A stretch of 64,000 nt of DNA. It comes from an uncultured Pelagibacteraceae bacterium. Lineage in GTDB: Bacteria > Pseudomonadota > Alphaproteobacteria > Pelagibacterales > Pelagibacteraceae. The position numbers were made by a program, and so were the translations under genes. Shown piece after piece: positions 28,985-56,355 of this stretch (position 1 is its first letter; each line of letters begins with the position of its first letter). Under the pieces are notes generated by a model that did no database searches, was not told the origin of the DNA, and was given only the letters and a program-made list of their open reading frames with translations. Location of the stretch: NCBI GenBank assembly GCA_902579105.1, contig CACHFM010000001.1, forward strand, positions 62,001 through 126,000. Direction: 5' to 3'.

Positions 28985-31900
28985 TTATAATTTAGTAGGC
29001 ATAGGTTTATTAACATCAATATTATATTTTTTCATTGCCTCTTTTGAATATTTTGACGCTATTAACTGTTCTTTTGCAAGTATGCTTAAGCCATAAACAA
29101 CAAAGTGTTCTTTATCCACCTCAAAAAATTTTCTAAGGTTTTTTCTAGTGTCACTTCTACCAAAACCATCGGTACCTAAAGAATAAAAACTTTTATTTAT
29201 ATATGGTCTAATTTGATCTGAATTCATTCTCATATAATCTGAGGCAGCCATTATCGGACCTTCAGTTTTTCCCAAACATTCTTCAACATAGGAAACTTTT
29301 TGATCTTTATCTGGATTTAAGAGATTATATCTTTCAATTTCCATTGCATCTTTTCTAAGCTCATTAAAACTAGTGACACTCCAGATTTCACTATCAATAT
29401 GATATTCATTTTGTAGAACTTCTGCTGCAGACATCATCTCTCTTAAAATTGTACCAGAGCCTAAAAGTTGGATTTTAGTTTTTTTATATTTTTTAAACTC
29501 TTTAATTTTGTACATTCCTTTAAGTATTCCTTTTTCACAATTTTTATCCTTTGGCATTTCAGGATGTGGATAATTTTCATTCATCGTAGTTATGTAATAA
29601 AATACATTTTCTTTTTTCTCATGCATTCTTCTCATGCCTTCTCTAAATATTACCGCAATCTCATAGTGAAATGTTGGATCATATGAAACACAATTAGGTA
29701 TTGTTGAAGCAATCAAATGACTATGTCCATCTTGATGTTGTAATCCTTCACCAGCTAAAGTTGTTCTTCCTGCAGTAGCGCCAATTAAAAAACCTCTAGC
29801 TTGACTATCTCCTGCCGCCCAAGCAAAATCTCCCACCCTTTGAAAACCAAACATAGAATAAAATAAGTAAATAGGAATCATTTCTATATCATGATTTGTA
29901 TAAGATGTTGCGGCTGCTATCCATGAGGACATTGCTCCTGCTTCAGTAATTCCTTCTTCTAAAACTTGTCCACTTTTTTCTTCACGATAAGAAGTTAATT
30001 GAGCTGCGTCCTCTGGTTCATACTTCTGTCCCTCATGAGCATATATACCTAATTTTTGAAAAAAACCTTCCATTCCAAATGTTCTTGCTTCATCAGGTAT
30101 TATTGGAACTAATCTTGAAGAAATATTTTTATCTCTCAATAAGTTTGTAAGTATTCTAACCAATGCCATTGTAGTAGACATCTCTTTCTCACCAGTTGAA
30201 ATCTTCATAGATTCGAAAATGTCTTTTGGAGGTGTTATTATAGGTTTTGCAAAGGTTGAGCGCTCAGGCAAGAAACCTCCTAGATTAATTCTTCTTTCTT
30301 TTATATATTTAATTTCAGGTGAATTTTCTTTTGGTTTAAAATATTCAATATTTCTTACCTGTTCATCGGTTAATGGAACGTCAAATCGATCTCTGTAATA
30401 CATTAAATCATCTACATCTAATTTTTTTGTTTGATGAGTAGTATTTACACTTTCGCCAGATTTTCCCATTCCATAACCTTTAATAGTCTTTGCAATAATA
30501 ACCGTTGGACTACCAATATTTTTTGATGCTTTATCATAGGCAGCGTAAACCTTGTGAGGATCATGACCACCTCTGTTTAGTCTCCAAATATCTTTATCTG
30601 ATAAACTTGAAACCAATTCTAAAGTTTCAGGATATTTTCCAAAAAATTTTTCTCTTACAAAAGCTCCATCTCTTGCTTTCATTGCTTGATACTCACCATC
30701 GACTGTTTCATTCATAATTTTTATTAAATGACCAGTTTTATCGTTTGCAATTAAAGAGTCCCAATACGAGCCCCAAATTACTTTTAGCACATTCCATCCT
30801 GCCCCTCGAAAAATACCTTCCAATTCTTGAATAATTTTTCCATTTCCTCTTACGGGGCCATCTAATCTTTGTAAATTACAATTAACTACAAATATTAAGT
30901 TATCTAATTTTTCTCGTGAGGCTAAACCAATAGCTCCCAAAGACTCTGGTTCATCCATTTCTCCATCTCCTAAAAATGCCCAAACTTTTCTACCTTCATC
31001 TTTAATAAATCCTCTATTAATCAAATATTTCATGTATCTAGCTTGATAAATTGCAAGCATAGGTCCTAAACCCATTGAGACAGTTGGAAATTGCCAAAAC
31101 TTAGGCATTAACCAAGGATGTGGGTATGAAGAAAGTCCTCCAGACTTTACTTCTTGTCTAAAACTATCTAAATGTTTTTCATTTAATCTGCCTTCTAAAT
31201 AAGCTCTAGCATACATGCCTGGAGCACTATGACCTTGAAAATAGATTAGATCTCCACCAAATTTATTATTTTTTGCTCTCCAAAAATGATTCATCCCTAC
31301 ATCATATAATGTAGCAGCCGATGCAAATGTTCCTATATGTCCACCAAGTTCAGGAAATTTTTTATTTGCTCTAACTACCATTGCTGCTGCATTCCATCTT
31401 ATTAAAGATCTTATTCTCCTTTCAATATTTTGATCACCATTAGATTTTACTTCCGCTTCATGTGGAATTGTATTTATATATGGGGTATTTTGTGTATAAG
31501 GAATATTTACACCTTCACGATATGACTTGTTAATTAATTCTTTAATAAGAAAATGTGCTCTTTGATTTCCATCTTTCGAAATAACTGCTGACAAAGATTC
31601 TAGCCAATCTTGAGTTTCCAAAGGATCAATATCTTCATTATCTGTTACTTGAATAATTGACTCTTTTTTTTCTATATCTTGTTTTTTAATAGTTGTTGTT
31701 TCTTTTTTTTTCTCTATGGCTGCAGCTTCTGCTTGTCTAATAATACTTTCGGTATCTTTTGGAATAGATTTTTTGGAATTATCTTCATGAGATGAGGCAA
31801 TTATTAAAAGTAAATCCCCTTCAGAAACTTTATCACCAATTTTAACCTCTACAGTTTCTATTTTTCCAGATAATGTTGAAGGAATTTCTATGCTGGATTT

Positions 31901-32023
31901 GTCACTTTCAATTGTAACTACTGGATCATTTGCTTTTATTTGATCACCAGGCTTTACAAGTACTTCTATTACCTCAACATTCTCGAATTCACCGATATCA
32001 GGAACAATTAATTTTTGACTCAT
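28985..32023 (-). CDS. aceE: pyruvate dehydrogenase E1 (AceE type) with N-terminal lipoyl domain
   Basis: This is the homodimeric, thiamine-diphosphate E1 that decarboxylates pyruvate, with an unusual fusion. Residues 1-80 form a biotinyl/lipoyl domain (LIVPDIGEFENVEVIEVLV) with the lipoylation site ESDKSSIEIPS (Lys about 42). A charged, Ala/Lys/Glu-rich linker (about 85-135) follows. The AceE core starts DIDPLETQDWLESLSAVI and includes the ThDP motif region GDGEMDEPESLGAI and QGHSAPGMYARAYLEGRL. The total of 1012 residues is about 125 longer than E. coli AceE, which fits the added domain and linker. It is followed 1 nt later by a lipoyl-less E2. No PdhR-type regulator is adjacent. Confidence 0.95.
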   Translation of the reverse strand: MSQKLIVPDIGEFENVEVIEVLVKPGDQIKANDPVVTIESDKSSIEIPSTLSGKIETVEVKIGDKVSEGDLLLIIASSHEDNSKKSIPKDTESIIRQAEAAAIEKKKETTTIKKQDIEKKESIIQVTDNEDIDPLETQDWLESLSAVISKDGNQRAHFLIKELINKSYREGVNIPYTQNTPYINTIPHEAEVKSNGDQNIERRIRSLIRWNAAAMVVRANKKFPELGGHIGTFASAATLYDVGMNHFWRAKNNKFGGDLIYFQGHSAPGMYARAYLEGRLNEKHLDSFRQEVKSGGLSSYPHPWLMPKFWQFPTVSMGLGPMLAIYQARYMKYLINRGFIKDEGRKVWAFLGDGEMDEPESLGAIGLASREKLDNLIFVVNCNLQRLDGPVRGNGKIIQELEGIFRGAGWNVLKVIWGSYWDSLIANDKTGHLIKIMNETVDGEYQAMKARDGAFVREKFFGKYPETLELVSSLSDKDIWRLNRGGHDPHKVYAAYDKASKNIGSPTVIIAKTIKGYGMGKSGESVNTTHQTKKLDVDDLMYYRDRFDVPLTDEQVRNIEYFKPKENSPEIKYIKERRINLGGFLPERSTFAKPIITPPKDIFESMKISTGEKEMSTTMALVRILTNLLRDKNISSRLVPIIPDEARTFGMEGFFQKLGIYAHEGQKYEPEDAAQLTSYREEKSGQVLEEGITEAGAMSSWIAAATSYTNHDIEMIPIYLFYSMFGFQRVGDFAWAAGDSQARGFLIGATAGRTTLAGEGLQHQDGHSHLIASTIPNCVSYDPTFHYEIAVIFREGMRRMHEKKENVFYYITTMNENYPHPEMPKDKNCEKGILKGMYKIKEFKKYKKTKIQLLGSGTILREMMSAAEVLQNEYHIDSEIWSVTSFNELRKDAMEIERYNLLNPDKDQKVSYVEECLGKTEGPIMAASDYMRMNSDQIRPYINKSFYSLGTDGFGRSDTRKNLRKFFEVDKEHFVVYGLSILAKEQLIASKYSKEAMKKYNIDVNKPMPTKL

Positions 32024-32297: not shown

Positions 32298-32705
32298 ATG
32301 AGTGAGGAATTTCAACAAATTAGTATAAAACCTGGTTTTATGAAACACAATGGTGGTGTTTTATTTAAAAAAATATCAGAAACAGAATACCAATTTAAAT
32401 CTAAAATTAATGAAAATCATTTAAATGCGGCAGGAATAACTCATGGAGGATATTTATCTGCTTTAATCGACTCTGGGGCAGGAACTGCAGCTCATAGAGC
32501 AGCTGATAATATGCCATGTGTAACTATTTCTCTAGATCTAAAATTTATTGGGTCATCTAAAATAGGTGATGAAATAATTGGATATACAAAAATTTTAAAG
32601 AAAACAAATACTCTTGTATTCCTATTTTGTGAACTAAAATGTAATAATAAAATTATAACTTCAGCATCAGGAGTGTGGAAAATTTTAAAAATCAGACCCA
32701 CTTAA
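32298..32705 (+). CDS. PaaI-family hotdog-fold thioesterase
   Basis: This 135-residue hotdog-fold protein is of the PaaI/YbgC-like acyl-CoA thioesterase type. The helix motif NAAGITHGGYLSALIDSGAGTAA (residues about 42-64) has the family HGG with the catalytic Asp/Glu region after it. Strands VTISLDLKFIGSSKIGDEI complete the sheet. Family members hydrolyse aromatic or short acyl-CoA thioesters. It sits alone between the small ORF and guaC. The exact substrate is unknown. Confidence 0.85.
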   Translation: MSEEFQQISIKPGFMKHNGGVLFKKISETEYQFKSKINENHLNAAGITHGGYLSALIDSGAGTAAHRAADNMPCVTISLDLKFIGSSKIGDEIIGYTKILKKTNTLVFLFCELKCNNKIITSASGVWKILKIRPT

Positions 32706-32748: not shown

Positions 32749-32778
32749 TTGATAAAAGTTATCCACAGCCAATATATT
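32749..32778 (+). promoter_or_regulatory. predicted guaC promoter with a DnaA box in the spacer
   Basis: TTGATA (32749-32754) and TATATT (32773-32778) are separated by 18 nt and each match the sigma70 consensus at five positions. The spacer contains a perfect TTATCCACA DnaA box (32759-32767). The predicted start of transcription is near 32785, within a palindrome, and 34 nt upstream of the guaC ATG. Confidence 0.5.
32759..32767 (+). promoter_or_regulatory. perfect DnaA box (TTATCCACA) upstream of guaC
   Basis: The 9-mer is identical to the high-affinity E. coli R1-type DnaA box. It is intergenic and lies between the predicted -35 and -10 elements of guaC, where bound DnaA would compete with RNA polymerase. 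A second perfect copy seen in the window (29565-29573) is inside the aceE coding sequence and is probably chance. Confidence 0.55.
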
Positions 32779-32780
32779 AA

Positions 32781-32796
32781 TTTGAAATATTTCAAA
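32781..32796. promoter_or_regulatory. 16-bp perfect palindrome at the predicted guaC transcription start
   Basis: TTTGAAATATTTCAAA is a perfect inverted repeat just downstream of the predicted -10 and 22 nt before the guaC ATG. Position and symmetry suit an operator for a dimeric repressor. It is all A/T apart from one G and one C, so chance cannot be excluded. Confidence 0.35.
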
Positions 32797-32818
32797 ATTT
32801 CAGATCAAATACAACTTA

Positions 32819-33853
32819 ATGAGAATTGAAGAAGATTTAAAACTAGATTATTCAGATGTTTTGTTTAGACCTAAGCGAAGCACTTTAGCAAGTCGTAAAG
32901 AAGTAAATTTAATGAGAACCTACAGATTTAAATATAGTAATCATGAATGGTCAGGAATTCCGATTATGGCAGCTAATATGGATGGAGTAGGTGAACTAGG
33001 TATAGCAGAAAAACTATCAGAATTTGGAATGATTACCTGTTTGACAAAACAACATGATATAAAAAAATTAAAACAATTCAAAAAGATTAAACCAATTTAT
33101 AAAAATATTGCTTTAAGTATTGGTATCAAAAAAGAAGATTTTGATAATCTAAACAAAGTATTAAAAGAATATAATTTTTTTAATTTTATTTGTATAGATG
33201 TTGCAAATGGTTATTCAGAACATTTTAGTAAATTTGTAAAATCTGTTAGAGATAAATATCCAACTAAAACTATAATTGCTGGGAATGTTGTTACCGCTGA
33301 TATGGCGCAAGAACTAGTTTTAAGTGGAGCTGATATTGTAAAAGTTGGTATTGGACCAGGAAGTGTTTGTACAACTAGAATTCAAACTGGAGTTGGTTAC
33401 CCACAATTAAGTGCTGTTATGGAATGTGCAGATGCTGCACATGGTCTTGGCGCTCATATTATAGCTGATGGTGGTTGCACATGCCCTGGTGATGTTTCGA
33501 AAGCATTTGGTGGAGGAGCGGATTTTGTAATGCTTGGGGGAATGCTTGCTGGACATGATGAAGGTAACGGTAAAATTATAAAATCAAATGGAAGTAAGTA
33601 TATAGAATTTTATGGATCTAGCTCAATTGTTGCTAATAAAAAGCATTATGGAGGACTTTCTGACTATAGAAGCAGTGAAGGAAGAGCTGTTAGGGTAAAA
33701 TATAGAGGAAAAATAAAAGATACTATTTCAAATATTCTTGGTGGTATTAGAAGTAGTTGTACTTATGTGGGCGCTCCATCATTAAAACAGTTAAGTAAAT
33801 GTACTACATTTGTTAGAGTTTCAAATCAATTTAATCGAACATTTGTAGATTAA
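32819..33853 (+). CDS. guaC: GMP reductase
   Basis: GuaC deaminates GMP reductively to IMP with NADPH, linking guanine and adenine nucleotide pools. The start LKLDYSDVLFRPKRSTLASR, the catalytic loop GIGPGSVCTTRIQTGVGYPQ (active-site Cys near 184) and GGADFVMLGGMLAGHDE are diagnostic. The 344 residues match E. coli GuaC (347) and lack the CBS pair that IMP dehydrogenase carries. It is a stand-alone gene with its own promoter region that includes a DnaA box and a palindrome. Its stop is shared in a TTAA overlap with the convergent TRAP permease. Confidence 0.94.
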   Translation: MRIEEDLKLDYSDVLFRPKRSTLASRKEVNLMRTYRFKYSNHEWSGIPIMAANMDGVGELGIAEKLSEFGMITCLTKQHDIKKLKQFKKIKPIYKNIALSIGIKKEDFDNLNKVLKEYNFFNFICIDVANGYSEHFSKFVKSVRDKYPTKTIIAGNVVTADMAQELVLSGADIVKVGIGPGSVCTTRIQTGVGYPQLSAVMECADAAHGLGAHIIADGGCTCPGDVSKAFGGGADFVMLGGMLAGHDEGNGKIIKSNGSKYIEFYGSSSIVANKKHYGGLSDYRSSEGRAVRVKYRGKIKDTISNILGGIRSSCTYVGAPSLKQLSKCTTFVRVSNQFNRTFVD

Positions 33854-54945: not shown

Positions 54946-56355
54946 TTATTTATTATTATATAGTATCTGATTTTTTAACTTATTAATGTTATCAACCATC
55001 TCTAGATCTTTTTGTTTAATCGTTTCGATAGTTTTAACTGAATGAATTATGGTTGTATGATCTCTATTAGAAAATTCTCTACCTATTTCTGGTAAAGACT
55101 TTGATGTTAAAATTTTAGTCAAATAAATAGCGACTTGTCTAGGTCTAACTAAATATCTTGATCTTCTAGAAGATAACATCTCGTTTTTACTTATTTTAAA
55201 AAACTTACAAACTATAGTTTGTATTAAATCTATTGTTACTTTATTTTCAGCTAAATTTATTAGATCCTTTAGGACAACTTTTGTTTCAGATAAATTTGGT
55301 ACTTTGTTATAAATTCTTGAAAATGAAACTACTCTATTTATTGCTCCAACTAACTCTCTTACGCTTGTAGTAATCTCATTACTTATAAAATTTTGAATTT
55401 CTTCAGAAATTTCTAATTGATCAACATATAAACTATTTAACTCTTCTGTTTTCTTTTTAACAATTTTTTTTCTTAGTTCGTTATCTGGTTTTTGAATATC
55501 AACCACTAAACCACCTGAAAATCTTGATTTAATTCTTTCCTGTATTCTTAACAATTTATTTGGTGCTCTATCAGCTGATACAATTATTTGTGAGCCTTTA
55601 TCTAATAGAGAATTAAAAGTATGAAAAAATTCTTCCTGCATAACTTCCTTACCACTAATAAACTGAATATCATCTATCAATAAAATATCTGTATTTCTAA
55701 AATATTCTTTAAATTTTACCATATCGTTTGATTTAATAGATTTAACAAACTGATACATAAAACGCTCTGCAGAAATAAACATTACTTTATTATTTTTTTT
55801 TAATTCTAAACCTATAGAATTTAGTAGATGAGTTTTTCCCATTCCAACTCCTCCATAAATATAAAGTGGATTATAATGAGATATATTTTCTGAAACCTTA
55901 AGAGATGCTTCGTAAGCAAGCTTGTTACTTGAACTAGTTATAAAATTTTCAAATCTTTTATTTGGATCTATTCTATTATACTGAAGATAAGAGTCTTTAA
56001 TAAAAGAAATGTTCTCATTTTTATTAGAATTTTTTTCAATTACTTCTTTCTGAATTTTATCTATTTTTTCATTTACTATTTTAAATTCAATTCTAATTAT
56101 ATCTTTCTTAAAAATTCGAATAATCTGTAAGATTTGATCTAAATATCTTGAAGTAATCCAATCTCTAATAAATCTAGTTGGAACAGACAATAATAAATAA
56201 TTATTAAATTCATCAACAAAGGTTATTTTTCTAAGCCAACTTTCATAAATATCTAAACCTAATTTTATCTTCATTTCATTTTGAACTAAATTCCAGTCAA
56301 AGTTTTCAGATTTAAAATTATTTATATTTTTTTCAGTATTTATTGATTTATTCAT
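54946..56355 (-). CDS. dnaA: chromosomal replication initiator DnaA
   Basis: DnaA binds oriC and opens the DNA. The length is 469 residues. Domain I (about 20-90), a short domain II, the AAA+ domain III with Walker A YGGVGMGKTHLLNS and Walker B LLIDDIQFISGKE, and domain IV with the DnaA-box recognition loop REFSNRDHTTIIHSVKTI are all present. The usual G of GGRDHTT is N here. The upstream 303 bp to rpsT hold a long A/T tract and 16-bp repeats that could serve initiation or dnaA control. Confidence 0.97.
   Translation of the reverse strand: MNKSINTEKNINNFKSENFDWNLVQNEMKIKLGLDIYESWLRKITFVDEFNNYLLLSVPTRFIRDWITSRYLDQILQIIRIFKKDIIRIEFKIVNEKIDKIQKEVIEKNSNKNENISFIKDSYLQYNRIDPNKRFENFITSSSNKLAYEASLKVSENISHYNPLYIYGGVGMGKTHLLNSIGLELKKNNKVMFISAERFMYQFVKSIKSNDMVKFKEYFRNTDILLIDDIQFISGKEVMQEEFFHTFNSLLDKGSQIIVSADRAPNKLLRIQERIKSRFSGGLVVDIQKPDNELRKKIVKKKTEELNSLYVDQLEISEEIQNFISNEITTSVRELVGAINRVVSFSRIYNKVPNLSETKVVLKDLINLAENKVTIDLIQTIVCKFFKISKNEMLSSRRSRYLVRPRQVAIYLTKILTSKSLPEIGREFSNRDHTTIIHSVKTIETIKQKDLEMVDNINKLKNQILYNNK

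Follow-up and report, generated by a model that had tools for sequence, protein, structure and literature searches.

A predicted DnaA box at the upstream boundary of the guaC promoter in one of the two guaC types of SAR11

Introduction

Bacteria of the SAR11 group, which rank among the most abundant cells on Earth, possess few regulators. In one such genome, which is Pelagibacter-like, a perfect copy of the E. coli DnaA consensus stands before guaC, the gene for GMP reductase, which raises the question of whether the replication initiator controls purine recycling in these streamlined cells and, if so, in which direction. A sequence-only reading of this locus had placed the box inside the guaC promoter, where DnaA would compete with RNA polymerase, and had taken the E. 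coli gua operon as its precedent. In E. coli, nrdAB is an established case of a nucleotide gene under DnaA control (PMC8203912), and ChIP-seq supports purH as another (PMC11317965). What is new here is a set of candidate targets for this known kind of regulation, whose distribution is unusually clean and narrow.

Results

A perfect DnaA-box sequence precedes guaC

The window (the whole stretch of 64,000 nucleotides that was analysed) has a GC content of 27% and contains the following features relevant to the question.

32298-32705: PaaI-like thioesterase gene, the upstream neighbour of guaC
32757..32767, plus strand: conserved 11-mer A[CG]TTATCCACA, here AGTTATCCACA, recognised by its conservation across genomes
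32759-32767, plus strand: DnaA-box 9-mer TTATCCACA, an exact match to the E. coli DnaA consensus
32819..33853, plus strand: guaC, GMP reductase, 344 aa (NF003470, E=1.2e-162)
54946..56355, minus strand: dnaA, encoding the presumed binder of the guaC box; domain IV of the protein can be aligned with that of E. coli DnaA (1J1V)

Both the perfect box and the identity of guaC, as first read from the sequence, were confirmed, and the start of the gene lies 52 bases beyond the box. Within the window alone the box is not above chance, since two exact copies of TTATCCACA occur against 0.74 expected and 13% of shuffles reach two; it is comparison between genomes that decides. An Rfam scan of the window returned tRNAs only. 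Upstream on the minus strand (28985-32023) lies an aceE-type pyruvate dehydrogenase E1 gene with a lipoyl-domain-like stretch fused at its N-terminus.

The box is invariant in about half of SAR11 guaC genes

We sampled guaC from the 166 of 399 genus genomes that carry it, together with 80 loci from named genomes, and assembled a conservation set of 119 SAR11-type upstream regions with a full start. An exact TTATCCACA was present in 53 of the 119 within the range -95 to -40, mostly at -56 to -60, where shuffled upstream regions give an expectation of 0.05. Five further regions had one mismatch and the remainder had at least three. Because almost nothing lies between perfect and absent, this distribution is unbiased evidence for conservation. 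On a GuaC tree of length 6.6, the nine columns of the box showed 0,0,0,0,0,0,0,0,1 changes over the 54 rows that carry it or its TTATCCACT form, against means of 18.2 changes per flanking column upstream and 11.5 downstream in the same rows, although these rows were chosen by the presence of the box and the invariance of its columns is thus partly built in. That bias is countered by the mismatch distribution and by a set of umuD upstream regions picked regardless of the box (see below). The A directly before the 9-mer and the adjoining C or G are also kept in box-containing guaC genes.

Conservation of the 9-mer, which the sequence-only reading had named as a check, held in about half of the SAR11 guaC genes (53/119), whose neighbours differ widely, and failed in the other half. 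These comparisons support the view that the guaC box is a real regulatory element, under selection at orthologous promoters of one guaC type, absent from the other, and tied to guaC. No box was found at 11 guaC loci from other alphaproteobacterial orders.

The box follows the gene rather than the locus

On the tree, guaC genes with and without the box are clustered yet mixed, with 8 changes compared with 37 in shuffles. Those lacking it (60 tree rows) nearly all start with GTG, and those carrying it mostly with ATG. The upstream neighbours of box-containing guaC belong to more than 20 unrelated families on either strand, including apt in 18 loci, a thioesterase in 5 and many sugar or glycosyltransferase genes, and the upstream regions are homologous only from the box onward. 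Together, these two observations indicate that the box goes with the gene and is independent of the locus. It is unlikely to be part of an RNA-level element in common with the upstream gene, as several box-containing loci have a neighbour on the opposite strand. The box-less half mostly occupies another genomic site: 48 such loci share a single position, divergent from an alpha/beta-hydrolase gene, and all 48 lack the box. That about half of guaC genes manage without it counts against the best explanation that we can offer.

Fewer than half of the genus genomes have guaC, and in the loci surveyed (L001-L137) it often stands next to surface-polysaccharide genes; both would be expected of a gene located within or close to a hypervariable region.

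The same element marks the umuDC promoter

Exact TTATCCACA occurs 10 times in the genome of the window and 7 times in the complete relative G106, and the only promoter sites common to both are those of guaC and umuDC. The restriction is sharper for the 11-mer A[CG]TTATCCACA: of 35 copies in 18 genomes, 17 lie at guaC (in 17/17 of the genomes that carry the gene), 13 at umuDC and 5 elsewhere. Four of these five are in the coding sequence of three genes (rmuC twice, a fumarase or aspartase-like gene, and dxs), and the fifth is directly behind pstS. The umuD box was exact in 28/30 close and 20/20 diverse umuD upstream regions, and it was found also in genomes without guaC, which implies that a core protein of the genus binds it.

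In G106 (C1:552947-555840), umuDC and guaC are convergent neighbours between inverted boxes. We considered whether the box might be the edge of a mobile umuDC-guaC cassette and rejected this, since the genes are usually apart and, of the other guaC loci collected, only one (L065) has umuDC in its flanks, within 4.5 kb.

DnaA is the likeliest binder

The DNA-binding domain of SAR11 DnaA is intact: aligned with domain IV of E. coli DnaA in 1J1V, it keeps the RRSR, PRQ, K, SLPEIG and RDHTT motifs, and with them the residues that we take to be those reading the DNA. Related boxes are also found at the presumed origin. The intergenic region before hemE, where oriC is located in Caulobacter and Rickettsia, is close to the GC-skew minimum of G106, and among 19 such regions TTATTCACA occurs in 8/19 and TTATCCACA in 1/19 (relative L246). 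The probable SAR11 oriC itself (G106, about 910400-910660, between a hemE-adjacent gene and hemE; L231-L249) has several degenerate DnaA boxes. Given the exact E. coli consensus, the intact contact residues and the related origin boxes, DnaA is the likeliest binder of the guaC box, and we hold this to be probable.

Recognition of A[CG]TTATCCACA by some other core SAR11 regulator is unlikely, but several observations speak for it. Conservation at the two promoters is near-absolute, including the A at -1 and position 5, which is always C in the guaC and umuDC boxes, unlike the degenerate oriC boxes, where it is mostly T and seldom C. The target promoters number only two. Moreover, guaC has no second box in the same orientation 2-3 bp away, matches at gaps of 2-3 bp averaging 3.2-3.5 of 9 upstream and 1.6-3.2 downstream, and in vivo E. 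coli DnaA prefers, and mostly binds, double boxes (PMC11317965). Against such a regulator stand the identity of the 9-mer with the E. coli DnaA consensus, its asymmetry, which is that of DnaA boxes, and the occurrence of TTATCCACA at the oriC position in L246. DnaA is also universal, as the binder must be.

The box lies upstream of the probable core promoter

Four elements around the box bear on how a bound protein would act.

32749..32778, plus strand: promoter first proposed, TTGATA (32749-32754), spacer of 18 bp, TATATT (32773-32778); -35 not conserved
32781..32796, plus strand: 16-bp palindrome TTTGAAATATTTCAAA, private to this genome and expected by chance
32782..32787, plus strand: TTGAAA, an instance of the TTGAAW element and the probable true -35, 14 bp past the box and 37 bp upstream of the ATG, with conserved spacing
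32805..32810, plus strand: TCAAAT, a weak and uncertain -10 candidate at a spacer of 17

A TTGAAW element lies 13-14 bp downstream of the box and about 36-37 before the start codon in most box-containing guaC genes, and exactly 37 before it in 42/45 distinct box-less ones. In guaC upstream regions the mean best match to TTGAAW was 4.5 of 6, compared with 2.84 for the -35 first proposed, whose TTGATA is private to this genome. Since TTGAAW is conserved with and without the box and the proposed -35 is not, we place the box upstream of the -35 region, by about 11-14 bp and near -50 to -55, a position that would be typical of an activator. No conserved -35 was found upstream of the box in these regions. 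The spacing of the -10 after TTGAAW is mostly 16 in box-less genes; in box-containing ones it is most often 14, or else the -10 is poor. The simplest reading would be that both types go back to a single ancestral core promoter, which is strong where the box is absent and weak where it is present. In this genome the transcription start of guaC, as judged from the conserved elements, is uncertain because the conserved promoter has a poor -10 (TCAAAT). No Shine-Dalgarno-like sequence is apparent before guaC, and its mRNA is probably leaderless or nearly so.

The promoter first proposed thus exists as letters, with TTGATA and TATATT at an 18-bp spacing, but was not borne out as a promoter; likewise the palindrome is perfect, yet it is not conserved in relatives and is one of nine perfect 16-bp palindromes in the window. 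A scan for promoter and terminator consensus sequences was uninformative in such A/T-rich DNA, giving 13 promoter-like sites per kb compared with 6.7 in shuffles.

These comparisons bear on the sign of regulation. DnaA could bind and repress guaC by covering the TTGATA-18-TATATT promoter; at nrdAB, DnaA-ATP can act as a repressor that keeps RNA polymerase out (PMC8203912). The -10 columns of that promoter are T/A-rich and partly conserved, with a full TATAAT in several relatives. Its -35, however, is not conserved by the measure given above, and the box-less promoters too have TTGAAW, equally far from the start codon. We therefore regard repression as improbable, and competition with RNA polymerase between a -35 and a -10, as the sequence-only reading had it, as less likely than action from upstream.

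A role in replication rather than in guaC transcription, through titration or reactivation of DnaA, seems very improbable. Such roles are known for the high-affinity boxes of E. coli datA and DARS, which titrate or recycle DnaA (PMC11317965), and TTATCCACA is scarce in G106 (7 copies vs 22 expected); this scarcity ranks only 8th of 399 permuted 9-mers and is suggestive only. The distance from box to start is kept while guaC changes neighbours and chromosomal place, and this counts against titration, which does not require a site to stay with one gene. Finally, a chance 9-mer in A/T-rich DNA, which the box count of the window would allow, is refuted by conservation at guaC, the shuffles, the constraint on the tree and the restriction of the 11-mer.

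Discussion

The results presented above suggest a model in which a predicted high-affinity DnaA box constitutes the upstream boundary of the guaC promoter in one of the two guaC types of SAR11. The box would lie just upstream of a weak core promoter, consisting of TTGAAW and a poor or badly spaced -10. Bound at this site, some 50-55 bp upstream of the transcription start, DnaA would most likely help RNA polymerase, such that GMP reductase is raised when free or active DnaA is abundant. DnaA as binder, the position of the start and the activating sign are the conditional parts of this model. We give an even chance to the model as a whole, that is, a DnaA box at the promoter edge that activates guaC and belongs to a two-promoter set.

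Several known systems resemble this arrangement in part. E. coli nrdAB likewise has a DnaA consensus box at a nucleotide-metabolism gene, and DnaA can activate it by stabilising RNA polymerase (PMC8203912); it differs in having a double box and a DnaA-ATP box, where guaC has one box and encodes a different enzyme. E. coli purH is a purine gene with a perfect TTATCCACA upstream and is bound by DnaA in ChIP-seq (PMC11317965), but its box is double, with 3-bp spacing and both halves needed, and it serves de novo synthesis, whereas guaC has a single box and serves GMP recycling. An alphaproteobacterial DnaA acting as a transcription activator is known from Caulobacter, where gcrA, ftsZ and podJ are targets (Hottes 2005, via PMC8203912); guaC is not among the targets named there.

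The E. coli gua operon is close to SAR11 guaC in having a single perfect TTATCCACA and in concerning guanine nucleotide metabolism, although its box lies within guaB, which encodes the opposite enzyme to GMP reductase. Repression of the operon through this box was reportedly described by Tesfa-Selase and Drabble in 1992, and repression of GMP synthesis would shift the pool in the same way as an activated GMP reductase. ChIP-seq, in contrast, detected no DnaA binding within guaB (PMC11317965), which makes the precedent invoked for this locus doubtful. A 3.5 kb stretch around E. coli guaC itself contains only one-mismatch sites and no exact box, and none of these sites falls in the upstream gap. 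Our literature search returned no paper naming a DnaA box together with GMP reductase; the single match joining Pelagibacter with a DnaA box concerns base skews.

With the same box at umuDC, DnaA would join guanine-nucleotide recycling and translesion synthesis to the replication state. The broader idea, which we put forward tentatively and at somewhat less than an even chance, is that the initiator runs a minimal set of two promoters outside the origin, guaC and umuDC, with the box moving along with guaC. If so, recycling and the error-prone polymerase V would both be tied to replication, and a letter-for-letter DnaA-type site at two promoters would show what a streamlined cell still couples to its initiator, namely mutagenic repair and the balance of guanine nucleotides. 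Purine recycling would also gain a clear natural example of control through a DnaA box, the E. coli gua case being doubtful. A single purified protein and two short pieces of DNA would be enough to test the question.

The umuDC upstream region has further features of its own. About 130 bp of it are conserved throughout the genus (umuD at G000:C2:3202-3594; L250-L279, L322-L341), and these comprise the box, TGTTCACG, a direct repeat TTTTGATTCA(C), three GANTC sites, a -35/-10 and GAAC-N7-GAAC. GATTC is strongly depleted in G106 (893 vs 3091 expected), yet the umuDC promoter keeps its three GANTC sites, and a CcrM homologue has been reported in SAR11 (PMC3973325). The GAAC-N7-GAAC adjoins the umuD ATG and fits an alphaproteobacterial LexA box. 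In one pelagiphage infection host recA, lexA, umuD and umuC rose together (PMC12753301).
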